Source: Anaerolineaceae bacterium (GTDB lineage: Bacteria; Chloroflexota; Anaerolineae; Anaerolineales; Anaerolineaceae). From it: DNA of 64,000 nt. Under the pieces are notes generated by a model. It saw only the letters and a list, made by a program, of their open reading frames with translations. It was not told the DNA's origin and did no database searches. Both the position numbers and the translations under genes were made by a program. Shown one piece after another: positions 9,554 to 54,867 of the stretch (its first letter is position 1; every line of letters begins with the position of its first letter). The stretch is taken from the NCBI GenBank assembly GCA_016841445.1, contig JAENZD010000001.1, forward strand, positions 558,001 through 622,000, written 5' to 3'.

Positions 9554-9892
9554 ATGATAGATCCAAAACTTGAACTCGAAATAAAACTATTACATAGCCG
9601 AATCTGCCAGGCATTATCCGATCCCAACCGGATTCTGATCTTATATAGCTTGCATGAGAAACCATGCTTCGTAAACGAGTTGGTAGAAGCTCTGGATCTG
9701 CCGCAATCAACCATTTCTCGTCACTTGGGTATCCTGCGTGATCGGAATTTAGTAACGAGTGAACGAGATGGGTCGACCGTCATTTATAAGCTTGTAGATC
9801 ACAGACTTATTGAAGTGCTAGATATGATGCGAGAGATTTTATCAACACAACTTGCCAATAGCGCTGAAATTGCTAATAAACTGCTTGATTGA
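9554..9892 (+). CDS. ArsR-family transcriptional regulator
   Basis: A 112-residue winged-helix repressor. The helix-turn-helix is visible as ELVEALDLPQSTISRHLGIL followed by the wing VTSERDGSTVIYKL. Two cysteines are present, Cys18 in the first helix and Cys38 in KPCFVNEL at the edge of the helix that holds the metal site in ArsR. The C-terminal helix has none, so the two-Cys persulfide switch of SqrR/BigR (second Cys near the C-terminus) is not reproduced exactly; a Cys18-Cys38 pair would be a different arrangement. As the first gene of the sulfur operon, it most likely senses a reactive sulfur species or thiol state. A palindrome lies before its start and a hairpin after its stop. Confidence 0.9.
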   Translation: MIDPKLELEIKLLHSRICQALSDPNRILILYSLHEKPCFVNELVEALDLPQSTISRHLGILRDRNLVTSERDGSTVIYKLVDHRLIEVLDMMREILSTQLANSAEIANKLLD

Positions 9893-9904
9893 AGTTTCAA
9901 CACA

Positions 9905-9928
9905 TAATGGACCTTTTGAGGTCCATTA
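9905..9928 (+). terminator. Hairpin after arsR, attenuator-like
   Basis: Perfect stem TAATGGACC / GGTCCATTA with a 6-base loop, followed by TTGATTTTG. The T run is broken, so it may stop only part of the transcription from the arsR promoter into dsrE. It could also serve as a second operator. Confidence 0.5.
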
Positions 9929-10015
9929 TTGATTTTGTCAGGTAGTTCTAATTGAAATTGGCAGACTGCCTCGCAATACTTCACCAGTCATGGATTAGTC
10001 ACTTAAGGAGTTCGT

Positions 10016-10369
10016 ATGAAAATTGGAATTATGATTTTGGAGGGGCCTTACCAGCACCAGGCTGTCGATTCCGCATATTTGTTCACCAATGCTGCAATCG
10101 CACGTGGACATGAAATTTGTGGAATCTTTTTATATACAGACGGGGTCAACAATATTAATAAATACATCAACCCACCCGGAGAGAGAAATATTAGCAAGCG
10201 GCTCTCAGAATTAGGGGAATCTGGCATAAAGATCATCGCATGTACAGCCTGTTCAAAATTCCGAGGATTAAGACCAGACCTGGCGGTTGAAAATGTGCGC
10301 CAATCGGGATTGGGTAACCTGGCAGAATTTCTGCGGTCAGCCGATCGTTTTATTACATTTGGCGATTGA
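10016..10369 (+). CDS. dsrE: DsrE/TusD-like sulfurtransferase subunit
   Basis: A 117-residue DsrE-fold protein of the DsrEFH/TusBCD sulfur relay. Cys76 in IIACTACSKFRG lies at the same distance from the conserved Arg-Gly as the persulfide-carrying Cys78 of TusD, and a second cysteine (Cys79) follows. Start has AAGGAG 7 bp upstream. Next come dsrF after 9 bp and dsrH after 12 bp, the order of the A. vinosum dsrEFH genes. In that setting the heterohexamer receives sulfur from TusA and passes it to DsrC. No DsrC or DsrAB is in this window, so the acceptor here is more likely the Hdr-like complex or the lipoyl protein. Confidence 0.9.
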   Translation: MKIGIMILEGPYQHQAVDSAYLFTNAAIARGHEICGIFLYTDGVNNINKYINPPGERNISKRLSELGESGIKIIACTACSKFRGLRPDLAVENVRQSGLGNLAEFLRSADRFITFGD

Positions 10370-10378
10370 GGAGGAACC

Positions 10379-10735
10379 ATGGATAAAACGCTTGTTTTAC
10401 TACGTAAGGCACCTTATGGAAGTGTTTATACAGCTGAAGCATTTCGCACCATTATGGGTATTGCGGTATTTGAGATGGATTTATGTGTGCTGTTTATGGA
10501 TGACGGAGTGTATGCACTGCTTAAAGATCAGGATCCATCAGGTCTTGATATGAAACCTCTTGGGGAGGGGTTCCCAATGTTAAAGGACTTTAATGTGACA
10601 AAGTTCGTCGTTCATGAAGAATCACTTAAAGAAAGAGGCTTGACACAAGCGGATTTGGTGCTCGATGTTGAGCTGGCTAGCAATGAACAGTTTGCTGATT
10701 TGTTAGCTGCATATGGGAAAATACTGCCATTTTAA
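10379..10735 (+). CDS. dsrF: DsrF/TusC-like subunit
   Basis: A 118-residue DsrE-fold protein matching DsrF/TusC: TLVLLRKAPYGSVYTAEAFR at the start, then VCVLFMDDGVYALL-type core and a C-terminal VELASNEQFADLLAAYGKI. Its single cysteine lies in the LCVLF strand and is not expected to carry sulfur, so the role is structural in a DsrEFH-type complex. AGGAGG stands directly before the start, with a 9-bp gap from dsrE. Confidence 0.88.
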   Translation: MDKTLVLLRKAPYGSVYTAEAFRTIMGIAVFEMDLCVLFMDDGVYALLKDQDPSGLDMKPLGEGFPMLKDFNVTKFVVHEESLKERGLTQADLVLDVELASNEQFADLLAAYGKILPF

Positions 10736-10747
10736 AAGGGAGCCAAT

Positions 10748-11041
10748 ATGTTATTTACGATTAATAAACCAATACTTAGTTCTAACTCGTTTGATTCTGC
10801 ATTACGGGTAGCACCCGATAGCTCCCCTTTCTTATTGTACGAAGATGGGGTTTACAATGCTTTGCCGGGAGCTGAGACAGAGACTGTGGTTAAGAAAGCA
10901 CTGCAAACACATCCGATCTTCGCGATAGATATCGATTTGCAGGCACGCGGGATCAAGAAGGTGATCGAAGGGATTGATATCATTTCTTACGATGGATTTG
11001 TTCAATTGGTCGAAGAGCATGATGTTGCACCCTTTTTGTAA
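10748..11041 (+). CDS. dsrH: DsrH/TusB-like subunit lacking cysteine
   Basis: A 97-residue small DsrE-fold protein with the typical LLYEDGVYNAL and GIDIISYDGFVQLVEEH segments of the DsrH/TusB group. It has no cysteine at all, so the conserved Cys20 used by A. vinosum DsrH is missing. Sulfur transfer must then rest on DsrE, and this subunit is probably structural. Start with AAAAGGGAGCC; 12 bp after dsrF. Confidence 0.85.
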   Translation: MLFTINKPILSSNSFDSALRVAPDSSPFLLYEDGVYNALPGAETETVVKKALQTHPIFAIDIDLQARGIKKVIEGIDIISYDGFVQLVEEHDVAPFL

Positions 11042-11070
11042 GGCTAATAACAATTGAAAAGGAGATAAAG

Positions 11071-11307
11071 ATGGAAATTAAAGCAGATCTTGTGCAGGAT
11101 TCAGTGGGTCAAATGTGCCCCATGCCGATTGCCTACCTGGCAAAAAATATGAGGACAATGGAGGTTGGGCAGATATTGGAGATTGATGCGGATGATGAAG
11201 GCGCACACTCGGATATCCCAGCCTGGTGCAATCAAACGAATAATGAATTTCTTGGCAAAGAGGATGCCGGTTCATTTTTCAAGTTTTTTGTTAAGAAAAC
11301 GGTTTAA
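11071..11307 (+). CDS. tusA: TusA-type sulfur carrier
   Basis: A 78-residue SirA/TusA-fold protein with the defining CPMPI motif (Cys16 as persulfide site) and the helix/strand pattern EVGQILEIDADDEGAHSDIPAWC. TusA shuttles sulfane sulfur between donors (rhodaneses, cysteine desulfurase) and DsrE-type proteins. A second cysteine in PAWC is common in anaerobe versions. It sits between the dsrEFH set and dsrE2, exactly the company TusA keeps in sulfur-oxidising bacteria. Ribosome site AAAAGGAG is strong. Confidence 0.95.
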   Translation: MEIKADLVQDSVGQMCPMPIAYLAKNMRTMEVGQILEIDADDEGAHSDIPAWCNQTNNEFLGKEDAGSFFKFFVKKTV

Positions 11308-11321
11308 TAGGAGAGGAAGAA

Positions 11322-11798
11322 ATGGAAAAAAATAATCGAGCGACGATTGTCTTAATGAGCGGGGATTTTGATCACGTATTTGCAGCTTTTACGATTGCAA
11401 TAGCTACATTGTCCGCTGGGATGGACACAACATTATTTATTACCTTCTGGGGTATCAAAGCAATCCAAAAAGGAAACCTGACCGGCCAGGGTTTTTTCGG
11501 AAAAATGCTTGGTTTAATCAATCGCGGTGGTTTGGATGTGATCGGGCCATCAAAGTTTAATTTTGGTGGGATCGGCCGTTGGATGTTCAAGAAAATGATG
11601 AAGGATAAGCGTGTTGTCCAGCTCCCTGAAATGCGCCAAACCATGATTGATCTGGGCGTTCATCTGCTGGCATGCAAAACCAGCATGGATGTCATGGAGA
11701 TTAAACGAGAAGATTTAATTGATGAGGTTGAAGGCATTGTTGGTGCTGCTACGATGGTAGAAAATGCCTCAAAATCAGAAGTTCACTTTTTCATTTAG
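11322..11798 (+). CDS. dsrE2: DsrE2-family sulfurtransferase
   Basis: A 158-residue DsrE2-type protein. The N-terminus ATIVLMSGDFDHVFAAFTIA and the glycine-rich central region are typical, as is the sulfur-carrying segment LLACKTSMDVM with Cys118. A long hydrophobic/basic loop (GFFGKMLGLINRGG) suggests contact with the membrane, proposed for this family. 14 bp after tusA, with AGGAGAGGAAGA before the start. In sHdr organisms TusA and DsrE-type proteins feed the Hdr-like complex; here hdrCB follows 55 bp downstream. Confidence 0.92.
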   Translation: MEKNNRATIVLMSGDFDHVFAAFTIAIATLSAGMDTTLFITFWGIKAIQKGNLTGQGFFGKMLGLINRGGLDVIGPSKFNFGGIGRWMFKKMMKDKRVVQLPEMRQTMIDLGVHLLACKTSMDVMEIKREDLIDEVEGIVGAATMVENASKSEVHFFI

Positions 11799-11853
11799 GA
11801 AAGTCAATCGAGTTTTTTAAGACTATTGCGTTTCTTATTAGTATGGAGGTTGG

Positions 11854-13053
11854 ATGGGCGTGGGACAATTCAATATCATTGACGATACGAATATTGACCT
11901 CGATTTTGCAGAGGTAAAGGGATTTAATATCTCAAAATTGAATACTTGTTTACAATGCGGTACTTGCAGCTCTTCATGTCCAACATATTTTGCGATGGAT
12001 GTCTCCCCCCGAAAACTGTGGCGGATGTTAGCGTTGGGTCTGAAAGAGGAGATCAGCCAGACAGATACCTTCTGGTTATGCACGTCATGCAATTCCTGTA
12101 CTATCCGCTGCCCTCGCGGGATTCCTGTAGCTGACACGATGCGGGAGATTCGTGAGCTGATCCTGGGTGAGGGAATGCAGCCTACGCCAGAAGCTTTAAA
12201 TCGGCTTCGAACGTTGATAACCGAATCCCACAATATGATGGGCGATGATAACGAAACCAGGCTCATTTGGAGTGATAATCTTCCTGAGGGTCTGGGTGAA
12301 ATCAAGCGCCAGGCGGATGTGGTTTGGTTCGTTGGCTGTGTTTCTTCTTTCTACCCTATGGCTTATAAGATTCCCCAATCCTTGGTTCAAATTTTAAAAA
12401 AAAGCGATATTGATTTCACTTTGATGGGTGGCCGTGAATGGTGCTGCGGTTTTCCTTTGGTTACTGCAGGGATGAGTGATGCTGTAAATGCGCTGGCAGT
12501 TAATAATGTAAGTCAAGTGATCGCTACGGGTGCGAAAACCCTGATCACAACTTGTGCATCCTGTTATCACACATGGAAACATATTTACCCGGATATGTTA
12601 TCTCACTTCCCCAAAGATCTCGAAATTCTTCATGCATCTGAGTATTTGGCGCGCCTGGTCGCACACCGCCAGCTCAGCCTTGGACCAGTAGAACGAATTG
12701 TTACCTACCACGATCCATGCGATCTTGGTAAACGTAATGGAATCTTTGATGAGCCACGCTTTGTTTTGGAGAATATCCCAGGCTTAGAATTACGGGAAAT
12801 GGCAAATCACCACCAGAATTCACTCTGCTGCGGTGGTGGCGGGAATGTTGAAGCATTCTCACCCGATACAGTTAATACAGCGTCTAACAATCGTCTGTTG
12901 CAAGCCCAACAAACGGGTGCATCCTATATTGTCTCTGCTTGCCAGCAGTGTATGCGCACTTTTACTGGCGGTGCAAGAAAAAACAAGATCCGAATTCGTG
13001 CGATAGACCTGACGCAAATCGTATATGAAGCGATCGAGAATAGTGCTTCTTAA
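11854..13053 (+). CDS. HdrC-HdrB fusion (HdrD-like) Fe-S subunit
   Basis: A 399-residue heterodisulfide-reductase-like catalytic subunit. Residues about 30-90 form the HdrC part with two 4Fe-4S motifs (CLQCGTCSSSCP and CTSCNSCTIRCP). The rest is HdrB with two CCG domains: GCV..WCCG..CASC and DPCD..LCCGGGG..CQQC. Both Cys sets are complete, so both noncubane clusters that cleave disulfides in true Hdr could form. Starts at the ATG behind GGAGG. It replaces the separate hdrC1/hdrB1 genes of classical sHdr systems. Predicted substrate is a disulfide or sulfur-bearing carrier such as the lipoyl protein encoded at 19959-20384; this is inference from context. Confidence 0.9.
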   Translation: MGVGQFNIIDDTNIDLDFAEVKGFNISKLNTCLQCGTCSSSCPTYFAMDVSPRKLWRMLALGLKEEISQTDTFWLCTSCNSCTIRCPRGIPVADTMREIRELILGEGMQPTPEALNRLRTLITESHNMMGDDNETRLIWSDNLPEGLGEIKRQADVVWFVGCVSSFYPMAYKIPQSLVQILKKSDIDFTLMGGREWCCGFPLVTAGMSDAVNALAVNNVSQVIATGAKTLITTCASCYHTWKHIYPDMLSHFPKDLEILHASEYLARLVAHRQLSLGPVERIVTYHDPCDLGKRNGIFDEPRFVLENIPGLELREMANHHQNSLCCGGGGNVEAFSPDTVNTASNNRLLQAQQTGASYIVSACQQCMRTFTGGARKNKIRIRAIDLTQIVYEAIENSAS

Positions 13054-13091
13054 TCACCTTCAAAAAAACAGCCGATAAACAAGAGATACCC

Positions 13092-16000
13092 ATGACAAAA
13101 AACAGTGCCCCCAGAATGCCCATTGATCCAGAATGTTGTCCTGCTCCTGGCGATACAGAGAATATCAACTCGCCAAATTTAAAGGCAGAAAATTTTCAAC
13201 AAAACGAGTCAATGAATAAGGATAAGCCCCGGATTGGTGTCTATGTTTGTATGTGTGGATCCAATATCGCCGGAACTGTGAATGTCCCGAAAGTTGTCGA
13301 GGCAGTCAGTCATATGCCGAATGTTGTGGTAGCACGCTATAACAAATACACTTGTTCAGGGCCGGGTCAGCAGAGCATCCAGGAAGATATCAAGGCGAAC
13401 AAGTTGAATCGGGTGGTCGTCTCGGCTTGCTCTCCTAGGATGCACGAACGAACATGGCGAGCAATGCTGACGAATGCAGGTGTTAACCCCTATTTGTTAG
13501 AAGTCGCTAACTTACGGGAACATGTTTCTTGGATCCATTCAGCGGGGGAAATGACAACCCGGAAAGCAGTTGACCTTGTAGCTGCAGCCATTGAGCGGGT
13601 TGCTCTCCACGATCCCCTTTTCCCCCAAAGGGTACCGGTAACAAAAGCTGCCATGGTGGTTGGGGGCGGTATTGCCGGCATCCAGGCTTCGCTTGATCTG
13701 GCTCAGGCAGGTGTTCCAGTGTACCTGGTAGAGCGTGAACCATCAATTGGTGGCCATATGGCCCAACTCGATAAAACCTTCCCCACACTTGACTGCTCTG
13801 CCTGCATTCTAACCCCAAAAATGGTGGATGTCGCATCCCATCCAAACATTACCTTACTCAGCAATAGTGAGGTAGAAAAGTTGGACGGATTTATTGGGAA
13901 TTTTCAGGTCACCGTCAGGCGGAAAGCGAGATATGTTGATGTGGATGCCTGTACGGCATGTAATGACTGTGTAAAAGTTTGCCCGGTGCAAATACCCAGC
14001 GAGTTTGAAAATGGAATGGCAGAACGGACCGCCATCTATCGGCCTTTCGCACAAGCGGTTCCAAACGCCTTTGCAATTGATAAACGCGGCGAAGCACCCT
14101 GTAAAGCTGCCTGCCCAGCCGGGATTCATGTTCAGGGTTTTGTCGCCCTGATTGCTGAAGGACGTTTTAAAGAAGCTTACGATTTGATCCAAAAAGATAT
14201 GCCTTTCCCGGGGATCTGCGGCCGGGTATGCCATCATCCATGTGAGACGGAGTGCCGCAGGGCGGAAAAAGACCAGCCTGTCGCAATCGAATTTCTCAAG
14301 CGTTATGCTGCTGATTGGGCTTTCACGCATCCAGAAGAATTTGTTGAAAATACAGCTGTATATAACCTCAAAGGCGATGACCTGGCTGGTAAAAAGATAG
14401 CGATCATTGGGTCAGGCCCTGTTGGTTTGACGGTTGCCAGGGATTTGGCAGCTAACAGTGCTGAGTGTGAAATCTTTGAAGCGCTTCCTGTCGCTGGCGG
14501 GATGATGAATGTGGGTATTCCAGGCCATCGACTGCCCAAACAAATTCTTGAAAAAGAAATCAATGACATCGTTTCCTTGCCAGGGATTAAACTTCACCTG
14601 AGCACGCCTGTGAGCCTGGCTCCCGAAGTAAACGCATCTGCGATGACGCTTGAACGACTCCGCCAGGATTTTGATGCAGTTTTCGTGGGGATTGGTGCCC
14701 ATCTCGGATCACGCATGGGCATCCCGGGTGAGGATTTGGAAGGCGTTTACTCAGGCATTGAATTCCTCAGGCAGGTCAATTTCTCTCATTTGAATGTGGA
14801 TCTAGGTTCCCAGCCAAAGGTAGGCAAGCGGGTGGCCGTTGTTGGCGGCGGTAACGTGGCGATTGATGCAGCGATGACAGCAAGACGGCTTGGGGCTGAA
14901 GAAGTCTCTATCATCTACCGCCGGACTCGTGATGAAATGCCAGCCCACGATTGGGAAATCGAGGAGGCGGCAGACGAAGGCATCAAATTTATTTTCCTGG
15001 CCAACCCTCTTGAAGTGATTGCCGATCAGGGAAGTGTTAGCGCGATAAAATGCCAGCGAATGCGTTTGGGCGCACCAGATTCCAGTGGGAGGCGACGGCC
15101 GGAACCCATTGAAGGTGATACCGTCACGCTGCCAATGGATACTGTTATTATGTCGATTGGTCAAAAGCTCGATGCTGAAAGTATTGAGATCAACCAGGGC
15201 AGCAAGGGCTGGATTGCCGTAGACCCACAAACTTTTCAGACAAGCGAAAGGGATGTCTTTGCTGCAGGTGATGCGGTGACTGGCCCGGTTTCGATCGTTG
15301 AGGTGGTGGGCACAGGGCATCAGGCGGCCGAATCGATCCGGCGCTTCCTTTGCGGCCAGGAACTTTTAGCCGGTCTGAAGCAGGGAAAGACTACCAAAGA
15401 GACGCCTGGTTACTACGAACCTGCAGCCTGGGATAGAACACCGAGGCAGGAGATTTCCTTCAGGGAAGCAGCGGATCGAAATGATTTTGACGAAATCTAC
15501 CTGGGCTTCACCGAAGACCAGGCCGTAGCGGAAGCCAAAAGATGCCTTTCTTGTGCTGCTTGTTCAGAATGCCTGGCATGTGTTGACGCCTGTGGTGTTG
15601 GGGCTATTGACCACACTGCTGTGGATACATTTGAACAGATTGATGTTGGTGCGATCATAATTGCTTCTGGTTTTGATGTCTGGGATCCCACGCCAATGCT
15701 GGAATACGGCTATGGTGTTTATCCCGAAGTTTATACCGGTATCGAGATCGAACGACTTTCCAACGCCTCAGGCCCGACTGAGGGAAATATCGTCATGCGC
15801 AACGGTGAAAAGCCTGAGCGGGTTGCCATTCTGCACTGTGTCGGCAGTCGTGATGAACACCACCAGCCATATTGCTCCCGGATTTGCTGCATGTATTCAT
15901 TGAAATTAGCCCATCTTATACGAGAGAAAACTTCTGCTGAAGTGGTTGAGTTCTACATGGATATCCGCTCATTTGGCAAAGGATATGAGGAATTCTATGA

Positions 16001-16640
16001 GAGGGTCCAGCACGAGGGTGTGGTTTTCGTACGAGGGCGCGGTGCGCAGGTTTTGCCGCAGGACGATCAGCTGGTTGTTTATGCAGAAGATACAGACCTT
16101 GGCCAACCGGTCAGGCTGCCGGTGGATATGGTGATCTTGGCGACTGGCGTTGTGCCTTCAAAGGGCGCGGATGAATTAGCCCATAAACTCCATGTAACCC
16201 GGGACATCAACGGCTTTTTCCTTGAAGCGCATCCGAAGCTTCGCCCTGTTGATAGCAACACGGATGGCATTTACCTGGCTGGCACCTGCCAGGCACCTCG
16301 CGATATTCCGGATACGGTCACGCATGCCAGTGCTGCGGCTGCCCAGGCTTTAGGATTATTGAGCCAACCTTATGTAGAAGTTGTACCCACCATTGCTGAA
16401 GTTGACGAGCTAAATTGTGTGGGGTGCAGTTTGTGCGTGGAAGTCTGTCCTTATGGCGCACCGACCCTGGCGGAAAACCGGGGAAGGCTTGTTTCGAAGA
16501 TCAATGAAGCACTCTGCAAAGGGTGTGGTCTTTGCGTTGCCGGATGCCGGGGAAAAGCCATCGCCCTGCGAGGTTTTACCGATAATCAGCTTCTATCCCA
16601 GATCGAAACTTTACTCCAATTCTCAATGGATGAGCGTTGA
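13092..16640 (+). CDS. HdrA-like flavoprotein with inserted GltD-type module
   Basis: A 1182-residue electron-distributing subunit, far longer than HdrA of methanogens (about 650). From M41 it reads as HdrA: N-terminal Cys domain, FAD fold VVGGGIAGIQAS (residue 189 on), the DCSACILTPKM cluster and a ferredoxin motif CTACNDCVKVCP. Between about 330 and 780 a complete GltD/NfnL-like unit is inserted, with its own Fe-S cysteines (CKAACPAG, CGRVCHHPCETEC), an FAD fold (IIGSGPVGLTVA) and an NAD(P) fold (VVGGGNVAIDAA). HdrA sequence then resumes and ends in two 4Fe-4S motifs (CVGCSLCVEVCP, CKGCGLCVAGC). Two FAD sites plus many clusters suit flavin-based bifurcation. True start may be the ATG at 13212. 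Confidence 0.9.
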   Translation: MTKNSAPRMPIDPECCPAPGDTENINSPNLKAENFQQNESMNKDKPRIGVYVCMCGSNIAGTVNVPKVVEAVSHMPNVVVARYNKYTCSGPGQQSIQEDIKANKLNRVVVSACSPRMHERTWRAMLTNAGVNPYLLEVANLREHVSWIHSAGEMTTRKAVDLVAAAIERVALHDPLFPQRVPVTKAAMVVGGGIAGIQASLDLAQAGVPVYLVEREPSIGGHMAQLDKTFPTLDCSACILTPKMVDVASHPNITLLSNSEVEKLDGFIGNFQVTVRRKARYVDVDACTACNDCVKVCPVQIPSEFENGMAERTAIYRPFAQAVPNAFAIDKRGEAPCKAACPAGIHVQGFVALIAEGRFKEAYDLIQKDMPFPGICGRVCHHPCETECRRAEKDQPVAIEFLKRYAADWAFTHPEEFVENTAVYNLKGDDLAGKKIAIIGSGPVGLTVARDLAANSAECEIFEALPVAGGMMNVGIPGHRLPKQILEKEINDIVSLPGIKLHLSTPVSLAPEVNASAMTLERLRQDFDAVFVGIGAHLGSRMGIPGEDLEGVYSGIEFLRQVNFSHLNVDLGSQPKVGKRVAVVGGGNVAIDAAMTARRLGAEEVSIIYRRTRDEMPAHDWEIEEAADEGIKFIFLANPLEVIADQGSVSAIKCQRMRLGAPDSSGRRRPEPIEGDTVTLPMDTVIMSIGQKLDAESIEINQGSKGWIAVDPQTFQTSERDVFAAGDAVTGPVSIVEVVGTGHQAAESIRRFLCGQELLAGLKQGKTTKETPGYYEPAAWDRTPRQEISFREAADRNDFDEIYLGFTEDQAVAEAKRCLSCAACSECLACVDACGVGAIDHTAVDTFEQIDVGAIIIASGFDVWDPTPMLEYGYGVYPEVYTGIEIERLSNASGPTEGNIVMRNGEKPERVAILHCVGSRDEHHQPYCSRICCMYSLKLAHLIREKTSAEVVEFYMDIRSFGKGYEEFYERVQHEGVVFVRGRGAQVLPQDDQLVVYAEDTDLGQPVRLPVDMVILATGVVPSKGADELAHKLHVTRDINGFFLEAHPKLRPVDSNTDGIYLAGTCQAPRDIPDTVTHASAAAAQALGLLSQPYVEVVPTIAEVDELNCVGCSLCVEVCPYGAPTLAENRGRLVSKINEALCKGCGLCVAGCRGKAIALRGFTDNQLLSQIETLLQFSMDER

Positions 16641-16675
16641 ACGGAAAATGGATGATGGAAAACAAGGATATGAGT

Positions 16676-17131
16676 ATGTCTGAATCATTTGAGCCGAAAA
16701 TCGTAGGATTTTTATGTAACTGGTGCAGCTATGCCGGAGCAGACCTGGCTGGAACAAGCCGGATGTCCTATCCGCAGAATGTTCGGATCATTCGTGTCCC
16801 CTGCTCTGGAAGAGTCGACCCCTTATTCGTTGTGAAAACCCTGATAGATGGTGCGGATGGGGTGATGGTGTTAGGCTGCCATCCGGGAGATTGCCACTAC
16901 CAGCAGGGGAATTACATTGCGCAGCGACGTTATTCAATCATGCACCGCTTGCTTGAATTCTCTGGACTTGAGACAGACCGGTTGTTTGTGGATTGGGTAT
17001 CCGCCTCGGAAGGTAAGAAATTCTCAGAGGTCGTTACGTCGTTTACGGAAAAGGTGAGGAACATTGGGCCTAATCCATTGAGAAAGAAGGCGGAAAGTGG
17101 GATCGATGTGCTTGAGGAGGTGAGTTCATGA
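16676..17131 (+). CDS. MvhD/FlxD-like 2Fe-2S electron-transfer subunit
   Basis: A 151-residue MvhD-family protein that connects HdrA with an electron-supplying module. The signature FLCNWCSYAGADLAG is near the N-terminus, with further cysteines in VPCSGRVDP and VLGCHPGDCHYQQGNY. I use the ATG at 16676 because AAGGA stands 8 bp upstream and the family begins about there; a frame opens at 16637, overlapping hdrA. All motif cysteines are Cys codons, unlike some methanogen homologues that use Sec. The stop overlaps the next ATG by 4 bp, a sign of translational coupling. Confidence 0.93.
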   Translation: MSESFEPKIVGFLCNWCSYAGADLAGTSRMSYPQNVRIIRVPCSGRVDPLFVVKTLIDGADGVMVLGCHPGDCHYQQGNYIAQRRYSIMHRLLEFSGLETDRLFVDWVSASEGKKFSEVVTSFTEKVRNIGPNPLRKKAESGIDVLEEVSS

Positions 17132-17994
17132 CCTTTATTGAGGATCAAATCAGGCAAACCGCCAGGAAATATCTGGAGAATGACGAGGTTTCCTGTGTGA
17201 TTGGCTATGAGCGGGATACTCGCGGCAGATCCCGACCTGTTTTCATTGAATCAGTGGATCAGGTTGATCGTCTCGTCTGGGGGCCGGACTGCAATTTAAA
17301 TCTGGCTTCTTACCTGCATGAGCGCAAGCACTCCCCGGGTAAGGACCAGCCTATCCCCAAAACTGCGGTTGTTTTGCGGCCTTGTGACACCCGCGCTATC
17401 AATTTGTTGATCAATGAGCAGCAAGTCGCCCGCGAGAATGTCCGGATTATTGGGGTAACCTGCGAGGGCAGCGAGATCAACGGCAGTCTGCGAGTAGATT
17501 GTGAGTTTTGCCAGGAGCGTGTTCCCCCATTGTACGATGATCTCATATTGACAGAGCTCCCCGTTGAGGTCCCGGAATCGGCCGACCCTTATGCTGATAT
17601 TAATGAGATGGACCAGTGGACACCAGAAGAACGTTTGGCCTTTTGGACCTCGGAGTTTGACCGCTGCATTCGCTGCTATGCCTGCCGGCAGGCTTGCCCA
17701 GGCTGTTATTGCTTTGAGTGTGTCGCCGAAAAACTCGATCCCCATTGGGTCTCGATTGCGCTGGAAGTTCCGGAAAAGATGTTCTTCCATGTCATGCGGG
17801 CTTACCACCTGGCAGGACGATGCGTGGGCTGTGGAGCTTGCGAGGCGGTTTGCCCGATGGATATTCCGCTGGGCAAGCTAAACCGGAAGGTCGCAAAAGA
17901 GATATTGGAGTTGTTTGATTACCGTACTGGCGACAGTATTGAAACGCACCCCCCGCTGGTTTGCTTTAATCCAAATGAACGCTTGAATTTATAA
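17128..17994 (+). CDS. 4Fe-4S subunit of Flx/Hdr-type complex
   Basis: A 288-residue Fe-S protein with an N-terminal domain holding RPCDTRAINLL and a cysteine-rich C-terminal half with two ferredoxin motifs, CIRCYACRQACPGCYCFEC and CVGCGACEAVCPMDIPLG. This architecture occurs in subunits accompanying HdrA and MvhD in FlxABCD-HdrABC clusters of anaerobes, where a pyridine-nucleotide oxidase feeds electrons to HdrA. It overlaps mvhD by 4 bp and precedes the related 18006 gene by 11 bp. It shares the RPCD motif with that neighbour, so the two probably arose by duplication and form a wire between the NAD(P) unit and HdrA. Which is FlxB and which FlxC cannot be settled here. Confidence 0.85.
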   Translation: MTFIEDQIRQTARKYLENDEVSCVIGYERDTRGRSRPVFIESVDQVDRLVWGPDCNLNLASYLHERKHSPGKDQPIPKTAVVLRPCDTRAINLLINEQQVARENVRIIGVTCEGSEINGSLRVDCEFCQERVPPLYDDLILTELPVEVPESADPYADINEMDQWTPEERLAFWTSEFDRCIRCYACRQACPGCYCFECVAEKLDPHWVSIALEVPEKMFFHVMRAYHLAGRCVGCGACEAVCPMDIPLGKLNRKVAKEILELFDYRTGDSIETHPPLVCFNPNERLNL

Positions 17995-18005
17995 GGATCA
18001 CCTCC

Positions 18006-19016
18006 ATGAAAGTGATATCACAGGAACAACTTAACCTTTGGCTGGCTGATTTACTGAAACAAACAGTAGTTGTTGCCCCCATTGAGAAACACGGGAAAAT
18101 TCAATATCAAGAGATTAATAGTATTTCTCAGATTGTTTGGGATTTTACTCGCCCGGAGCTGCCGCCAAGGAATTGGGTCATTCCCATGACAGAACCAATC
18201 CTGTTTATTGAACAAGGTCCAACGACGGTCTTGAAACAGCCGGATCTCCCACATGAAAAGATCCTGTTTGGTCTGCGTCCGTGTGATTCAAGAAGTTTTA
18301 AAGTATTAGATGCCCTGTTCTGGGATAAAGAACCGGCTGACCCGCAGTATGCCCGGCATCGCCAGGCGCTGACCCTGATCGGGTTGGCCTGCCCTGAAAT
18401 GTGGGATTCCTGTTTTTGCACGGTTGTCGGCGGTGCACCGGACGATACTGAGGGCTTGGATATCCTGCTGACCCGGATCGATGATGGGTTTGCTGTGCAG
18501 GCCATTACAGAAAAAGGGCAGGCATTGGTTTCCGGCCTCGATCTTCTGCAATGGAGCGGTGTTCCAGCTGACCCCTCTGAAGCCCGGGGTCTGCCAAAAT
18601 TGCATGAAAGCGCTGAATGGGCAGCAGTCTTCAAGGACGTTTTCTGGAAAGAGTTAAGCCACGCCTGTTTGAGCTGCCGGGTGTGTTCATTCGTTTGCCC
18701 AACCTGCCGTTGTTATGATGTCAGGGACGAGGTGATCGCGATTTGTCCCAACGGCAAGGTCTATGAGCGGCTGCGTGCTTGGGATACCTGCACATCGATG
18801 GGCTACCGGCGCATCGCAGGTGGGCATAATCCAAGGGAAACGCAAGTCAAACGGTTGAAGAATAGGTTTTACTGCAAATTCATGTATTATCCGGAAGATT
18901 TTGGAGTTCTGGGCTGTGTTGGCTGCGGCCGGTGTATTGATGCCTGCCCTGCAGGGATTGATATCCTTGAAGTTGTTGAAAAAGTGGACTTAAAGTTGGC
19001 GCAGGCACAAATATAA
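18006..19016 (+). CDS. AsrA/sulfhydrogenase-beta-like 4Fe-4S subunit
   Basis: A 336-residue protein of the Fer4_22 type found as AsrA of anaerobic sulfite reductase, the beta subunit of sulfhydrogenase and a Flx subunit. It has GLRPCDSRSFKVLDALFW in the N-terminal domain and, in the C-terminal third, CLSCRVCSFVCPTCRCYDV and CVGCGRCIDACPAGIDI for two 4Fe-4S clusters. With the following FAD/NAD subunit it makes the same pair as AsrA-AsrB or HydB-HydG, which carry electrons between NAD(P)H and a partner. No sulfite reductase AsrC or hydrogenase subunit is present; the partner here is the Hdr-like complex. Confidence 0.88.
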   Translation: MKVISQEQLNLWLADLLKQTVVVAPIEKHGKIQYQEINSISQIVWDFTRPELPPRNWVIPMTEPILFIEQGPTTVLKQPDLPHEKILFGLRPCDSRSFKVLDALFWDKEPADPQYARHRQALTLIGLACPEMWDSCFCTVVGGAPDDTEGLDILLTRIDDGFAVQAITEKGQALVSGLDLLQWSGVPADPSEARGLPKLHESAEWAAVFKDVFWKELSHACLSCRVCSFVCPTCRCYDVRDEVIAICPNGKVYERLRAWDTCTSMGYRRIAGGHNPRETQVKRLKNRFYCKFMYYPEDFGVLGCVGCGRCIDACPAGIDILEVVEKVDLKLAQAQI

Positions 19017-19063
19017 GGTGGATTTCATCATGTTGATGCAGTATTTTTTACGAAGGGTCACTT

Positions 19064-19906
19064 ATGCTTGATACCAATTCAATTCTTACAACCCCAGGCC
19101 TGGCTACGATCAAAGGCATGAAGGACCTGGCAGACAATATCAAACTTGTGCAGGTCAGGTTTGATGATCCGGATGCCAGGAAAAACTTCAGCTATGCCCC
19201 CGGGCAGTTTGCAGAAGTCTCTGTTTTTGGTGTGGGGGAGTCACCTTTTGGTTTGGCTTCCAGCTCTGAAAGGGGAGACATCGTCGAGTTCGCTGTCAAC
19301 CGGGTAGGCACACTGACGGAAGCTCTCTTCCGCCTGGATGTGGGCGATCAGATCGGTTTGCGCGGGCCGTTAGGTAATGGCTTCCCGATGGACCGGTTCA
19401 AAGGCAAGAATATCGTTATCCTGGGCGGCGGGATTGGCGGCGCACCGTTACGCCCCATCATCCAGACCATCCTTGACCACCGTGGGGATTATGGAAAGCT
19501 GACCATCTTGTGGGCTGCGAGAAGTCCGGATCTGCTGGTGTTTACCGATGAATATGACTTGTGGCAGCAAGCGCCAGATGTTGAAATGTTCCTGACGGTG
19601 GATAAAGCTCCTGCAGGTTGGCCGCATGAAGAGGGTTTGATCACGACACTGCTCGAAAAGATCAACCCTTCAACAGATAACACCATTACAATCACCTGCG
19701 GACCACCGATCATGATCAAATTTGCGATGATGACCTTGGAAAAATTGGGTTTTCAACCTGACCAGAACTGGGTCACCCTGGAAGCAAAAATGAAATGCGG
19801 TATCGGGAAGTGCGGCCGCTGCAATATGGGCGGTGTGTATATCTGTACCGAGGGTCCGGTGTTTTGTTTTTCTGAAGTCAGACAATTTTTGGAAAGTTTT
19901 GTGTAA
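19064..19906 (+). CDS. FAD/NAD(P)-binding reductase subunit (FlxA/AsrB-like)
   Basis: A 280-residue ferredoxin-reductase-fold subunit. The FAD part holds PGQFAEVSVFGVGESPFGLAS, the NAD(P) part VILGGGIGGAPLRPII and CGPPIMIKFA, and the C-terminus a 2Fe-2S motif KCGIGKCGRCNMGG with a last Cys in YICTEGPV. This layout matches AsrB, sulfhydrogenase gamma and FlxA. It is the likely NAD(P)H entry or exit point of the complex, in addition to the GltD-like module inside HdrA. That gives two potential pyridine-nucleotide sites, which is unusual. It is preceded by a 47-bp gap and followed by the lipoyl protein gene. Confidence 0.9.
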   Translation: MLDTNSILTTPGLATIKGMKDLADNIKLVQVRFDDPDARKNFSYAPGQFAEVSVFGVGESPFGLASSSERGDIVEFAVNRVGTLTEALFRLDVGDQIGLRGPLGNGFPMDRFKGKNIVILGGGIGGAPLRPIIQTILDHRGDYGKLTILWAARSPDLLVFTDEYDLWQQAPDVEMFLTVDKAPAGWPHEEGLITTLLEKINPSTDNTITITCGPPIMIKFAMMTLEKLGFQPDQNWVTLEAKMKCGIGKCGRCNMGGVYICTEGPVFCFSEVRQFLESFV

Positions 19907-19958
19907 TAATTAGTGGTGATTGATACAATCAATAGCCTACCGGAGGAGAGTAGATACC

Positions 19959-20384
19959 ATGACATCAATTTTAGGTTATGAATTCCCAGAAGATTTATTT
20001 TTCACACGAGACCATATTTGGGTCAAAGCTGATGGCGATGACGTCACCATTGGTTTATCAGATTTTGGCCAGGCTATAGCTGGTGATATCTTGTTCATCG
20101 AGATGCCGAATATTGGGCGCGTGATCGCGAAAGATGAGGCTTTCATGTCGATGGAGTCTGGCAAATGGGTTGGGCGGGTTAAAGCCCCCATCAGCGGAAC
20201 TGTTTCTGAGGCGAACGAAGAGCTTGAATGGGAAACAAACCTCGTCAATTCAGACCCTTATGGCGAAGGCTGGCTGGCAAAGATCAAGGCCAGTGACCTT
20301 TCTGAATTAGATACCCTTCTGCGTGCCGATTCTCCTGAATTGGAAGCCTTAATTACAGAAGAAAAAGCTAAATATAACAAATAG
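19959..20384 (+). CDS. GcvH-like lipoate-binding protein (LbpA-type)
   Basis: A 141-residue lipoyl-domain protein. The start at 19959 follows GGAGGAG. The modification site is Lys69 in SMESGKWVGRVKAP, in place of the ESVKAAS loop of glycine-cleavage GcvH, and the C-terminal helix is GcvH-like. No other glycine-cleavage gene (gcvT, gcvP) is nearby. Instead it sits directly after Hdr/Flx genes and before a lipoate ligase, with TusA and DsrE2 in the same operon. This is the context of LbpA, which carries sulfur intermediates on lipoamide in sHdr sulfur oxidation. The divergent lipoyl loop supports an LbpA-type role over glycine cleavage, but phylogeny would be needed to be certain. Confidence 0.88.
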   Translation: MTSILGYEFPEDLFFTRDHIWVKADGDDVTIGLSDFGQAIAGDILFIEMPNIGRVIAKDEAFMSMESGKWVGRVKAPISGTVSEANEELEWETNLVNSDPYGEGWLAKIKASDLSELDTLLRADSPELEALITEEKAKYNK

Positions 20385-20437
20385 TTGAAATACAGCTTTA
20401 TTATCTCGCTTCGCTGTTGCATTCATGAGGAAAATTG

Positions 20438-21478
20438 ATGAGACTTTTTCATTTAAGATCTGTTGATTGGCTCGATTCGCAATTGATCTATCATGCCCAG
20501 GCCCGTTTGGGTATTGAAGGCATTAATATCCTGGCACCGAGTACCCCGTATGTCTGCATTGGCTATCACCAAAACCTGGCACAGGAAGTGGATCTTGAAT
20601 ACTGCAAGGCGCATGATATCCCGGTTTTCCGCAGGGAAGTCGGCGGCGGGGCGGTGTTTTTGGATGGGGACCAGATTTTCTATCAAATTGTGCTGCATAA
20701 AGACAACCCGCTGGTCAGGGGGGATAAAGCTGATCTATACAAACTTTTGCTAGAGCCGGTTGCACAAACCTATGCTGACCTGGGAATCCCATCGCAGTAC
20801 CGGCCGGTAAACGATGTGGTCACCCTCGAGGGGCGCAAGATCTCCGGGACAGGTGCTGCTGAAATCGGTGATTCTATTGTGCTTGTCGGAAATTTGATCG
20901 CAGATTTTGATTATGAAACCATGACACGTGTCCTGCGTATCCCGGATGAGAAGTATCGGGATAAGGTCTTTAAAAGCATGCGGGAGAACCTGACCACGAT
21001 TAAAAGAGAGATTGGGCAAGTTCCCACTTGGGATGCGATGGCCGGGCCATTGATCCGAAATTACGAAAGCATCTTCGGGACGCTGGAAGCAGTTGAGCTG
21101 CCCGATGAGGTCCGCCGTGAAGCTGAGGTACTGAAACCGCAGTTCCTGAGCCAGGACTGGTTGTTCAAGCGGAGAACAGCCGGGAAGCAAGAGGGTATCA
21201 AGATTGCAACAGGGGTTAATGTCATCAACAGGGCTCATAAAGCACCAGGTGGTTTGATCCGCGCGCTATTCGAATTGAAGGATGAAGTTATCTTTCAGGT
21301 TTCACTCTCTGGTGATTATTTTTGTTATCCCCAGGATACCGTTTCACGTTTGGAAGCAGCCCTTGAGGGAAAAGCTGTATCTGACTTGCCTGACCTGATC
21401 GAGGCATTTTATCAGGATGAGGACTTTGAAACCCCGGGTATCTCCCCGCAGGACTGGGTTAAAGTGCTGGTTGGATGA
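20438..21478 (+). CDS. Lipoate-protein ligase
   Basis: A 346-residue LplA-family enzyme that activates lipoate with ATP and attaches it to a lysine. Visible are the RREVGGGAVFLDGDQIFYQ loop that binds lipoyl-AMP, the catalytic-lysine region GRKISGTGAAEIGDSIVLVG and a C-terminal accessory domain, so it is a full-length ligase. ATG 20438 follows TGAGGAAAAT; a TTG three bases earlier is also in frame. Being adjacent to the lipoyl protein gene, it probably serves that protein, like the sLpl(AB) ligases of sHdr loci. LipS1/LipS2 lipoate synthases, which accompany many such ligases, are absent from this window. Confidence 0.9.
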   Translation: MRLFHLRSVDWLDSQLIYHAQARLGIEGINILAPSTPYVCIGYHQNLAQEVDLEYCKAHDIPVFRREVGGGAVFLDGDQIFYQIVLHKDNPLVRGDKADLYKLLLEPVAQTYADLGIPSQYRPVNDVVTLEGRKISGTGAAEIGDSIVLVGNLIADFDYETMTRVLRIPDEKYRDKVFKSMRENLTTIKREIGQVPTWDAMAGPLIRNYESIFGTLEAVELPDEVRREAEVLKPQFLSQDWLFKRRTAGKQEGIKIATGVNVINRAHKAPGGLIRALFELKDEVIFQVSLSGDYFCYPQDTVSRLEAALEGKAVSDLPDLIEAFYQDEDFETPGISPQDWVKVLVG

Positions 21479-21876
21479 TGGTAGCTCACAACGAAATGGT
21501 GGTCCTTTATAAAGATGGTGCTGCGGAGGTAGATGTGGGGGTGCGTACCATCCGGGTTGGACGGCGGGATGCAGACGACAGTGCCAATTTATGCCCGGTT
21601 GAACTGGTGACTTCGGCCCTGGGCACCTGAATTGTCCTGACGATCGCTGCAGTTGCAGAGAACAAGCACATCAAGCTGGAAGATATTAAAGTCAGGGTTT
21701 TGAGAGAGGGGGATGAGGTCGATTTTTCACAAACCCGGTTCGATATGAAAATCGAGCTATCAGGGGATCTTTCAAAACGGGAAAAGATATTACTGTTCAA
21801 TTCAGCCAGGAACTGCGAAGTCCATAAGATGTTGAATGGTGCAATGCTTTTTGATTATCGTTTGGGAGATGAGTAA
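21475..21876 (+). CDS. OsmC-like selenoprotein (TGA = selenocysteine)
   Basis: A 133-codon OsmC/YhfA-type thiol reductase read through one in-frame TGA at 21628-21630 (codon 52). The frame before it ends ELVTSALGT and continues IVLTIAAVAENKHIKLEDI. OsmC proteins have their reactive cysteine exactly there (ALGxC). The second conserved cysteine is intact in FNSARNCEVHKML. The protein is full-length for the family after readthrough, and a hairpin with a GU-containing loop stands 16 bases after the TGA. Selenocysteine is therefore the best reading; a chance nonsense mutation is the alternative. The start overlaps the lplA stop (ATGATG), so it is translationally coupled to the sulfur operon. A peroxide- or persulfide-reducing role is inferred. 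No selA, selB or selC is in the window. Confidence 0.82.
21631..21658 (+). promoter_or_regulatory. Candidate bacterial SECIS hairpin
   Basis: CTGC (21647-21650), loop AGTT, GCAG (21655-21658): a small stem whose loop presents G-U about 22-24 nt after the TGA, the same place as the G and U recognised by SelB in E. coli fdhF. The stem is short (4 bp) and the lower part is poorly paired, so folding should be modelled. Confidence 0.6.
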
Positions 21877-23337: not shown

Positions 23338-24180
23338 ATGAAAGCATTGATTGTTGGCGCAGGACATATGGGGGGCGGCATCGCACAGGTCATGGCGGCC
23401 GCTGGACACCGGACATACCTGAACGATATCAATTTGGCTATCGTGAACCGACGCCTGGACGCGATTGCGGGATGGCTGGCACAAAGCGTGCAAAAAGGAA
23501 AGATCAGCGAGGCGGAAAGAGCGGAAACACTGGCGAACATCATCCCCTCGACTGACTTGGGGGACGCGGAAAACTGCGACATCGTTTTTGAAGCCGTGAT
23601 CGAAAACTTAGAGCTCAAGGCGGAAATCTTCCGAAAGCTGGATGAGGTCACCAAACCCGGCTGCATCCTGGCCAGCAACACCTCCTCGCTTTCCATCACG
23701 CAGCTCGCCGAGCAGACGGAGCGCCCAGGGCAGGTGATCGGCTTGCATTTCATGAACCCTGTCCCGCTCATGAAGCTGGTGGAACTGATTCGCGGGACGG
23801 CTACCACCGATGAGACCTTCACTGCCGTGCAGACCCTGGCCCTCTCCCTTGGCAAAACACCCGTCGAAGTGCGGGACGTCCCGGGCTTTGTGCTGAACCG
23901 GGTGCTGCAGGTCATGATCAACGAGGCGATCTACTGCTACTATGAAGACGTTGCAAGTGCTGAAGGGATTGATACCGTCATGAAGCTGGGGGCTAACCAC
24001 CCCATGGGGCCGCTGGCCCTGGCAGACCTGATCGGGCTGGATACGGTGCTTTATATCCTTGAAGTCATGCATGAAGTCTATGGGGACGAAAAATACCGTC
24101 CTTGCCCGTTATTAAAGGAATACGTGGCAAAGGGCTGGCTGGGTAAGAAGGCCGGCCGCGGGTTTTATGTGTATGAGTGA
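23338..24180 (+). CDS. 3-hydroxyacyl-CoA dehydrogenase (3-hydroxybutyryl-CoA type)
   Basis: A 280-residue NAD-dependent dehydrogenase that interconverts 3-hydroxyacyl-CoA and 3-ketoacyl-CoA. It shows the N-terminal Rossmann loop ALIVGAGHMGGGIAQ, the LASNTSSLSIT and GLHFMNPVPLMKLVE segments with the catalytic His, and the C-terminal helical domain with GANHPMGPLALADLIGLD. Size matches monofunctional Hbd rather than the multienzyme FadB. Start chosen at the ATG behind CGAGGAG. It stands alone, immediately before the AT-rich restriction island. It could serve butyrate metabolism or beta-oxidation. Confidence 0.92.
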   Translation: MKALIVGAGHMGGGIAQVMAAAGHRTYLNDINLAIVNRRLDAIAGWLAQSVQKGKISEAERAETLANIIPSTDLGDAENCDIVFEAVIENLELKAEIFRKLDEVTKPGCILASNTSSLSITQLAEQTERPGQVIGLHFMNPVPLMKLVELIRGTATTDETFTAVQTLALSLGKTPVEVRDVPGFVLNRVLQVMINEAIYCYYEDVASAEGIDTVMKLGANHPMGPLALADLIGLDTVLYILEVMHEVYGDEKYRPCPLLKEYVAKGWLGKKAGRGFYVYE

Positions 24181-24603
24181 GGTTGAGGAGAAGGTAGAAA
24201 GCTTGATTTTGTTTGATTAGTAAAAAGGAGGGGAACTCGCAAATTAAATTAGGTTTTCTTTATGGTGAAAAAGTGTGAAGAAACTAGGAGAAAATTGAAT
24301 TCTATAAGAATCAGCAAAATGTGTAAAAGGAGATTGTAATTTGTAAAATTTTTATGAAATCCAATTTATTGAAAAGATGTTGCACACTTCACTCGATATG
24401 CAAAACTTCAAATGTTTATAAAAAGAATGAATAATAAATTTATTTAGCAATAATCACAAATTTTACATGCTATAATTACGTTTGTAAATGATCTATAATA
24501 ATATTATTATTACAACATAACATATGAAATAAGAGACTAATTATATACGAGTTTATGTAAAAATTATTTGTTAGTGAATTAATAGATAAAGAAATAAACT
24601 AAT
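24181..24603. other. AT-rich left border of the restriction-modification island
   Basis: A 420-bp stretch rich in A and T with a sharp drop in GC after the dehydrogenase stop. No frame, tRNA or clear terminal repeat was seen. Probably acquired DNA holding the promoter of the following genes. Confidence 0.5.
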
Positions 24604-25868: not shown

Positions 25869-25878
25869 AGGAAATTTA

Positions 25879-54540: not shown

Positions 54541-54774
54541 AAACTTCTTTGATGTTGTTAAGCTCAATATTTGAAATTCCCATAAGTCTTTCCTGATTTT
54601 GATTGGTATTCATTGATCTCAATAGATGAATAATTGATCCAAATATTGCGCTTCTAGCAGGAAAACGATCTCAAACCACAGATTGAAACCGAGGAAAAAT
54701 GTCGAAGAAGTAAAGAAACGTCTTATTTGAGACTGATCTCTGCAAGATTGATGGAAATCAGCGACGAATACCAA
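54541..54774. other. Region between mcrC and the right repeat
   Basis: AT-rich, no frame of note. It might contain remnants of an older gene (no stable reading found). Confidence 0.35.
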
Positions 54775-54867
54775 ATCAGCAAACGTTTTTATGCTGGCAA
54801 TTCATTCGATTGTTAAAGTACAATGGGCATTTCTGACTCGATTTTACAGAAAATAGGTTACATAATC
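54775..54867 (+). repeat. Right copy of the mcrBC-flanking direct repeat
   Basis: Begins ATCAGCAAACGTTTTTATGC and includes CATTTCTGACTCGATTTTAC; same order and strand as 50637-50727. The distance between copies is about 4.1 kb. Confidence 0.7.

Follow-up and report, generated by a model that had tools for sequence, protein, structure and literature searches.

The 64,000-nucleotide stretch of DNA considered here (hereafter the window; positions 558001-622000 of contig C3) comes from the 3.35-Mb, 8-contig genome of an Anaerolineaceae bacterium of the phylum Chloroflexota, and the system in question is an operon of fifteen genes at window positions 9554-21876. The operon joins a set of sulfurtransferases (DsrEFH, TusA and DsrE2), a GcvH-like lipoyl protein with its adjoining ligase gene, and the subunits of an Hdr-Flx electron-transfer complex. 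The explanation that we favor, to which we give about an even chance, is that a soluble sulfane-sulfur relay operates together with a lipoyl protein that is charged by its own ligase and serves as the substrate of HdrB, within an HdrCB-HdrA(GltD)-MvhD-FlxCBA complex linked to nicotinamide adenine dinucleotide (phosphate), NAD(P). The explanation is carried by the gene content, gene order and motifs of the operon, by the position of its lipoyl protein outside both GcvH and the LbpA carriers of sHdr systems, and by the recurring linkage of such lipoyl genes to CCG (HdrB-type) genes in other genomes.

Layout of the operon

All fifteen genes are read in one direction, in the order ArsR, DsrE-F-H, TusA, DsrE2, HdrC-HdrB fusion, HdrA(GltD), MvhD/FlxD, FlxC-B-A, lipoyl protein, ligase and OsmC-like protein. 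The gaps between them range from -4 to 55 bp, with a sole wider spacing of 123 bp between arsR and dsrE. The original prediction had described fifteen co-directional genes; their positions were confirmed, and Pfam supports the names. It had left the last of them, an OsmC-like gene with an in-frame TGA, unmentioned, and some starts have since been corrected (lipoyl protein, ATG at 19959; ligase, ATG at 20438). The features are as follows.

9554-9892, plus strand: ArsR/SmtB-type regulator (PF01022, 4e-16)
9904-9929, no strand: 26-bp inverted repeat with 11-bp perfect arms, between arsR and dsrE (inverted-repeat scan)
10016-10369, plus strand: DsrE/TusD sulfurtransferase (PF02635, 6e-26)
10379-10735, plus strand: DsrF/TusC (PF02635, 1e-19; TIGR03010, 94.1 bits)
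10748-11041, plus strand: DsrH/TusB, cysteine-free (PF04077; TIGR03011, 68.6 bits)
11071-11307, plus strand: TusA sulfur carrier with CPMP motif (PF01206, 2e-19)
11322-11798, plus strand: DsrE2 (PF13686, 1e-36)
11854-13053, plus strand: HdrC-HdrB fusion, HdrCB (Fer4_8 and two CCG stretches; PDB matches)
13092-16640, plus strand: HdrA with an inserted GltD module, type III HdrA architecture (family scans)
16637-17131, plus strand: MvhD/FlxD-like (FlpD) subunit (PF02662, 8e-54)
17128-17994, plus strand: FlxC-like iron-sulfur (Fe-S) protein (C-terminal part resembles FdhB of solved Hdr complexes)
18006-19016, plus strand: FlxB, AsrA-like Fe-S protein (PF17179, Fer4_22; TIGR02910, 169.5 bits)
19064-19906, plus strand: FlxA, AsrB/DHODB-like module for flavin adenine dinucleotide (FAD) and NAD (family scans)
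19959-20384, plus strand: GcvH-like lipoyl carrier with ESGKWVG motif (GCV_H, PF01597; trees; predicted structure)
20438-21478, plus strand: lipoate-protein ligase with a C-terminal LplB-like domain, RREVGGGAVFLD (LplA-B_cat; ligase tree)
21478-21876, plus strand: OsmC-like candidate selenoprotein (UGA at 21628-21630, at the first catalytic cysteine position)

Several subunits score under the curated NCBIfam cut-offs, namely DsrE (76.7 vs 89.25), DsrF (94.1 vs 94.15), DsrE2 (58.1 vs 210), FlxB with the AsrA model (169.5 vs 323.15) and FlxA with the AsrB model (200.6 vs 288.6); DsrH scores above its cut-off (68.6 vs 49.2).

The lipoyl protein and its ligase

The lipoyl protein carries the motif ESGKWVG and contains no cysteine. 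Its model (mean predicted local distance difference test score 96.3) has the GcvH fold, with a predicted C-terminal helix at residues 127-140, and the best match in a fold search is the Thermus thermophilus H protein (1onl, template-modeling score 0.84). It passes the cut-off of PRK01202 (134 bits vs 117) and falls below that of TIGR00527 (111.1 bits vs 115.85); all eight ESGKWVG proteins with scores shown exceed the former, and three of the seven others scored (from loci L145, L153 and L137) also pass the latter, equivalog cut-off. The NCBIfam models fail to separate this group from GcvH, in that 28 of 28 proteins scanned match both GcvH models, and public annotation probably names the family GcvH. 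When plasmids were searched, the best match in each record was less than 60% identical, and among the 15 matches listed for each search the annotation was GcvH, lipoate ligase, Fe-S protein or none.

Trees give a clearer placement of the protein. A careful, unrooted tree was built from 54 chosen rows, with Bathyarchaeota left out; in it the canonical GcvH proteins form one clade (support 100/99) and the LbpA proteins another (100/98), both excluding the window protein, while the window-type proteins form one group (85/88). A larger tree of 144 rows, in quick form, places 25 canonical GcvH rows in one set (98, with four other rows), 31 LbpA rows in one set (99, with two others) and the window row in a set (97) of 33 rows that by title all come from Chloroflexota except L117. 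As judged from these sequences, the lipoyl protein of the window is outside canonical GcvH and sHdr LbpA. Its wider group does not appear to be firmly one clade; rows from Bathyarchaeota, Baldrarchaeota and Njordarchaeum are separate from the window-type set in the 144-row tree, and L087, L089, L095, L103 and L246, rows from other searches that were automatically labelled window-type, are placed elsewhere in it.

The reference LbpA proteins were recognised from motif, pairing and cysteines, and nearly all of the proteins so taken have the N-terminal cysteine; the two-cysteine hallmark is not strict, because the second carrier encoded in genomes G086, G060, G154, G177 and G387 lacks the C-terminal one. 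Many members of the ESGKWVG family from Desulfobacterota and Actinomycetota have one or two cysteines, mostly near residues 61, 99 and 106, unlike the LbpA positions.

The ligase gene (lplA) directly adjoins the lipoyl gene. In a tree of ligases, which were labelled by locus and not by adjacency to a lipoyl gene, the window ligase belongs to a set of 25 (support 97) made up of itself, 21 ligases from lipoyl loci and those of G070, G247 and G130. This set lies near the sHdr ligases, and five canonical references lie across a branch with support of 100, along with L150 and one of the two ligases of L181; the ligases of L137 and L167 fall elsewhere. The original prediction had depended on the lipoyl protein and its ligase standing apart from those of glycine cleavage, and neither kind of tree refutes it: the lipoyl protein is separated from canonical GcvH, and the ligase does not group with the five references. 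Portions of the gene order are also conserved in relatives. LipA is encoded in the host genome, and no LipS1 or LipS2 radical S-adenosylmethionine (SAM) gene was found among the fifteen operon genes (these were not sought genome-wide).

A lipoyl profile built from two rows was run against 400 Chloroflexota genomes and matched 102 of them at E <=1e-30, with matches better than 1e-38 only in G000, G074, G247 and G070, the first two of which had themselves built the profile. All four have the lipoyl gene with Hdr or CCG genes: G247 has hdrC, an HdrB-like open reading frame (ORF), hdrA, mvhD and the lipoyl gene, G074 has an FAD oxidase, HdrCB and the lipoyl gene, and G070 has HdrCB and the lipoyl gene. 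These four lipoyl-bearing genomes are all among the 35 of the sample that have a ligase match.

Neighbors of the lipoyl gene in other genomes

Genome contigs were scanned with a four-row alignment, under the patterns [LMV]ESGKWVG or an EFPDD-type stretch, which gave no fewer than 497 relatives, and the 80 best were retained; the search pattern itself accounts for the motif being invariant among the rows obtained (28 aligned). By title, the relatives belong to Chloroflexota, Desulfobacterota and other Deltaproteobacteria, Bacillota, Actinomycetota, Bathyarchaeota and Asgard archaea. The 80 loci reduce to 73 with the ESGKWVG motif, since no lipoyl ORF was called in L134 and L143 and five others have a different motif. 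Two of the 73 (L132 and L139) duplicate contigs that supplied query rows, and many are cut by contig ends.

A CCG protein is encoded within 5 kb of the lipoyl gene in 53 of the 73 ESGKWVG loci, as against none of 20 canonical GcvH loci, the latter hand-picked from canonical profile matches and not random. When only loci with 5 kb on both sides are counted, the CCG signature is present in 28 of 34. Other neighbors within 5 kb of the 73 genes are HdrA (20 loci), LplA (21), MvhD (10) and DsrE (3), and among the 20 controls HdrA was found once and LplA twice. Hdr-type enzymes, rather than sulfur chemistry, therefore look like the general partner of the family, given the counts for CCG and DsrE. 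Neither CCG nor LplA was in reach in 13 of the 73 loci, including all but one of the five Bathyarchaeota loci and that of Njordarchaeum; Hdr/CCG genes are present at L171 (Baldrarchaeota) and L137 (Helarchaeota), and three rows from Lokiarchaeota are canonical (ESVKAVG).

Clusters of other neighbors, each named from one member, were an AMP-binding ligase (13 loci), a NiFe hydrogenase large subunit (5), a RACo-like protein (5) and a LarA-like protein (4). The LarA-like genes lie within 5 kb of lipoyl and CCG genes in L168, L175, L180 and L187, with an FAD-linked oxidase recognised by Pfam in L168 and by eye in L175, an arrangement that suggests a lipoyl-linked variant of lactate oxidation. In Syntrophaceae and other Deltaproteobacteria (L142, L144, L153, L160 and others) the lipoyl gene is beside hdr-flx genes, and the AMP-binding CoA ligase cluster is the one found near it in 13 loci.

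The sulfur genes

The cysteines of the sulfurtransferases are well preserved: C76 and C79 of DsrE are present in all eight sequences compared, C16 and C53 of TusA in seven of seven, and C118 of DsrE2 in six of six. Sulfur, lipoyl and Hdr/CCG genes are joined in four loci from three phyla, namely the window, L126, L137 and L155. The Chloroflexota locus L126 has HdrCB, DsrE-F-H, the lipoyl protein and TusA. L155, from a Symbiobacterium species (Bacillota), has a helix-turn-helix (HTH) gene, DsrE, DsrF, a DsrH-like ORF, the lipoyl protein, HdrC, an HdrB-like ORF, LplA and DsrE2, and L137, from a Helarchaeote, has TusA, HdrA, an HdrB-like ORF, HdrC and DsrE2 divergent from DsrE-F-H, the lipoyl protein and LplA. 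The HdrB-like, DsrH-like and HTH ORFs of these three loci were named by eye. The claim that the modules are joined beyond chance has held up, in that sulfur, lipoyl and Hdr/CCG genes recur together in L126, L137 and L155, and electron and lipoyl genes in L109 (see below).

A DsrE profile search of 50 genomes, drawn from those of the 80 loci, found nine at E <=1e-10 and seven below 1e-50; three of these seven had themselves built the profile. 'Ca. Formimonas warabiya', whose locus L147 pairs the lipoyl gene with HdrCB, gave no DsrE match. In G462 dsrEFH-tusA is on a 3.5-kb contig.

The host genome has no match to NIR_SIR (DsrC was not sought), so DsrAB and AsrC are taken to be absent, and an rDsr pathway with DsrAB was rejected on this ground. 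The sulfur proteins resemble DsrEFH/TusBCD in forming a three-subunit DsrE family with the active cysteine of DsrE, as presented in PMC3397948; they differ in that the host genome lacks DsrAB and the DsrH of the operon lacks cysteine.

The Hdr-Flx electron module

The HdrCB fusion has two [4Fe-4S] motifs and two complete CCG motifs, the latter starting at residues 162 and 289. Its best sequence match in PDB is the iron-sulfur-binding reductase 9ojn (4e-32), followed by HdrC (1e-20) and, weakly, HdrB (1e-5), both from complexes of methanogens. FlxC matches the formate dehydrogenase beta subunits (FdhB) of Hdr-Fdh complexes in PDB. The FlxA, FlxB, FlxC, FlxD/MvhD, HdrA, HdrB and HdrC parts of the FlxABCD-HdrABC NADH dehydrogenase/heterodisulfide reductase, reportedly described by Ramos in 2015, are all present and adjacent; the operon differs in that HdrC and HdrB are fused, HdrA has a GltD unit, and a lipoyl protein, a ligase and a sulfur relay are attached. 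The GltD-like insert of HdrA spans about residues 331-756, which makes the protein a type III HdrA as that class is defined in PMC12054007. Both have the insert, and that of the operon is bacterial, occurs with Flx and has a second Rossmann motif reading GGGNVA, which by the rule given there favors NADP over NAD.

The hdrA-mvhD-flxCBA block is widespread among Chloroflexota, and FlxC is found at E <=1e-30 in 24 of the 400 genomes, the host included. In the neighborhoods of 20 of the other 23 FlxC genomes (some of them short contigs), no window-like sulfur, lipoyl or ligase gene was found at E 1e-4; the G247 stretch ended just before the lipoyl gene, and the lipoyl genes of G074 and G070 are on other contigs. 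A scan of genome contigs with FlxC as a single protein gave no match. The electron module has its closest relative in L109, where hdrCB, hdrA, flxB, flxA and the lipoyl gene stand together at 56-73% identity to the window (HdrCB 71%, HdrA 71%, FlxA 73%, lipoyl protein 64%), with apparent frameshifts over mvhD and flxC; the L109 genome gave no DsrE match.

Near the lipoyl-Hdr operon of G247 (locus L105, 6431-12971), flxA and flxB are separated by genes for a glycyl radical enzyme and for a radical SAM protein. FlxB was located there by tblastn at about 10586-11569, in a frame different from that of the radical SAM ORF, and ORFs that resemble NiFe hydrogenase by eye come next.

A proposed mechanism and its alternatives

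In the mechanism that we favor, the ligase would charge the lipoyl carrier, and DsrEFH, TusA and DsrE2 would hand sulfane sulfur to or from the thiols of the carrier, by analogy with LbpA and sHdr. The CCG site of HdrB would interconvert the lipoyl dithiol and disulfide, with or without bound sulfur, as CCG chemistry and the gene linkage suggest, and HdrA and Flx would pass the electrons to or from NAD(P)H and possibly ferredoxin. Because HdrCB and FlxC match Hdr and formate dehydrogenase complexes in PDB, electrons may follow the path NAD(P)H-FlxA-FlxB-FlxC-MvhD-HdrA-HdrC-HdrB-lipoyl. The overall direction could be sulfur oxidation, sulfur reduction or confurcation, among which sequence cannot decide. 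Both CCG motifs and the cysteines of DsrE, TusA and DsrE2 are intact, which supports this proposal.

Other findings weigh against it. The midpoint potentials are about -0.29 V for lipoyl, -0.32 V for NADH and about -0.45 V for ferredoxin. Flavin-based bifurcation from NADH to lipoyl and ferredoxin would be uphill, and therefore confurcation that yields NAD(P)H, or a lipoyl group loaded with sulfur, is more likely. The DsrH of the operon has no cysteine at all, and no cysteine column is conserved across eight DsrH sequences, so that there is no equivalent of the DsrH-Cys20 that is essential in vivo in Allochromatium vinosum, according to PMC3397948. Most lipoyl-CCG loci have no sulfur genes (DsrE being limited to the 3 of 73 noted above). 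An intact dsrEFH-tusA-dsrE2 cassette (47-71% identity per gene) is present in genomes G450, G459 and G471, where the stretch fetched shows neither a lipoyl nor an Hdr gene, so the sulfur and lipoyl/Hdr modules can travel apart. Furthermore, the DsrE of the Helarchaeote locus is 66% identical to that of the window, which suggests gene transfer, and the four linked loci may not be independent. Finally, in the ligase tree that of G074 sides with the canonical references, and the ESGKWVG or window-type label is not one clade in the 144-row tree, where six changes are needed.

A broader proposal, to which we give somewhat less than an even chance, is that the ESGKWVG proteins make up a third class of free-standing lipoyl carriers, alongside GcvH and LbpA. 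They would provide a protein-bound disulfide for HdrB/CCG enzymes in bacteria and Asgard archaea, in place of the disulfide of coenzymes M and B (CoM-S-S-CoB) or of DsrC, and in this operon would also tie the sulfane-sulfur relay to the NAD(P)-linked Hdr-Flx complex. The failure of the group to form one clade in the large tree weakens this proposal. Among the matches listed in a search of open-licence literature, no title or abstract opening describes the ESGKWVG lipoyl family or the operon.

The leading alternative, which we consider rather unlikely, is that lipoyl-Hdr-Flx is a general carbon or redox shuttle, with the lipoyl disulfide equivalent to CoM-S-S-CoB or DsrC, and that the sulfur cassette is separate (serving thiol homeostasis, or thiolation of cofactors or tRNA) and merely co-regulated. 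Such a shuttle would account for the lipoyl-CCG pairs that lie, in loci with no sulfur genes, beside FAD-linked oxidases (G074, L147, L168), a LarA-like gene (L168), an AMP-binding ligase (L142) or a NiFe hydrogenase (L124), and for the unlinked cassettes in the stretches read of G450, G459 and G471. Against it stand the links of the cassette, or of parts of it, with lipoyl and Hdr/CCG genes across Chloroflexota, Bacillota and a Helarchaeote, links that may not be independent.

It is improbable that the operon encodes a divergent sHdr-LbpA system, that is, a sulfite-forming pathway of sulfur oxidation. As described by Cao 2018 (PMC6067878) and in PMC10332631, such systems also have a GcvH-like lipoyl protein with a dedicated, related ligase, TusA/DsrE, HdrA and HdrB/HdrC homologs. 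ArsR-type repressors are known in them too. The operon shares the ES[AG]KWVG lipoyl motif, the related ligase, TusA, DsrE2, an ArsR-type regulator, HdrA, HdrB and HdrC. It has, by contrast, one HdrCB fusion among its fifteen genes where sHdr has two HdrB/HdrC sets (C1B1A-hyp-C2B2), an HdrA with GltD, Flx/MvhD subunits, a DsrEFH trimer and no radical SAM genes, and its lipoyl protein lacks the LbpA cysteines and is excluded from the LbpA clade. Plain sHdr was dropped for the single HdrB/HdrC set, the missing LbpA cysteines and the position outside the LbpA clade. On the same evidence, the merger of sHdr and Flx systems envisaged in the original prediction is retained in so far as a lipoyl-sulfur-Hdr-Flx link is the best hypothesis, and is given up as a merger with the known sHdr/LbpA. 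Another Chloroflexota cluster, hdr-etf-lbpA of Thermomicrobium roseum, likewise has tusA, dsrE, lbpA and Hdr genes together, and differs in its lbpA-type carriers, its EtfAB and its aerobic host, as described in PMC6776052.

That the lipoyl protein is an ordinary glycine-cleavage GcvH moved into the operon is very doubtful. The predicted fold, the top PDB match, the PRK01202 score and the ESGKWVG proteins that pass TIGR00527 would fit this view; against it, the host genome has a second GcvH (motif ESVKA) adjoining two ORFs that by eye resemble gcvPA and gcvPB, the operon has no gcvT or gcvP, and the protein is below the TIGR00527 cut-off and outside the canonical clade. Least credible of all is that FlxBA is the electron module of an AsrAB-type sulfite reductase, since the AsrA and AsrB models do match FlxB and FlxA but both scores are under the curated cut-offs and the genome has no NIR_SIR protein, hence no AsrC.

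The OsmC-like gene, the regulator and the surroundings of the operon

The last gene of the operon begins at an ATG (21478) that overlaps the lplA stop and ends with a stop at 21876. Its in-frame TGA (21628-21630) falls at the position of the first catalytic cysteine of OsmC proteins, as judged by alignment to an OsmC-like ORF of L206. Because the host genome has SelB (343 bits vs a cut-off of 242) and a selenocysteine tRNA (69.5 vs 47; SelA and SelD were not sought), it is plausible that this protein is a selenoprotein, and we regard it as a candidate. The TGA may instead be a nonsense mutation or a sequencing error, an explanation kept alive by the small hairpin after the UGA, which folds no better than shuffled RNA (z 0.39), and by the search for OsmC orthologs at E <=1e-8, which found none in 300 other genomes (1 of 301, its own).

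The inverted repeat at 9904-9929 is a candidate ArsR operator or terminator. A repeat scan beside the sulfur cassette found none in L204 or L155, and merely 8-bp arms in L206 and L207. In L204 and L206, too, an arsR gene comes after the dsrEFH-tusA-dsrE2 cassette, and the HTH ORF upstream of dsrE in L155 was taken as ArsR by eye, with no family scan.

Fifteen genomes of the same genus (66-98% complete) have no HdrCB match better than E 4e-13, so the operon looks patchy and was perhaps acquired by its host. Just 3' of the operon is a stretch of low GC content (0.33, at 24001-28000), in which an ORF at 24604-25209 resembles, by eye, the start of a DDE transposase. Farther along the window, at 50937-58644, three long co-directional ORFs (760, 442 and 1204 amino acids), partly of low GC content (0.36-0.37 from 52001), could be a restriction system.

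Implications

To our knowledge, the disulfide substrate of Hdr-type enzymes in bacteria that have neither coenzymes M and B nor DsrC is an open question. If the reading favored here is true, a lipoyl carrier that has a ligase of its own and lies next to Hdr-type enzymes in several phyla would be a concrete and testable answer. The role of lipoate would then extend from sulfur oxidation, where it acts in LbpA, to anaerobic electron transfer, and the operon would be a candidate for a new sulfur pathway in Chloroflexota that have not been cultured and in an Asgard archaeon.

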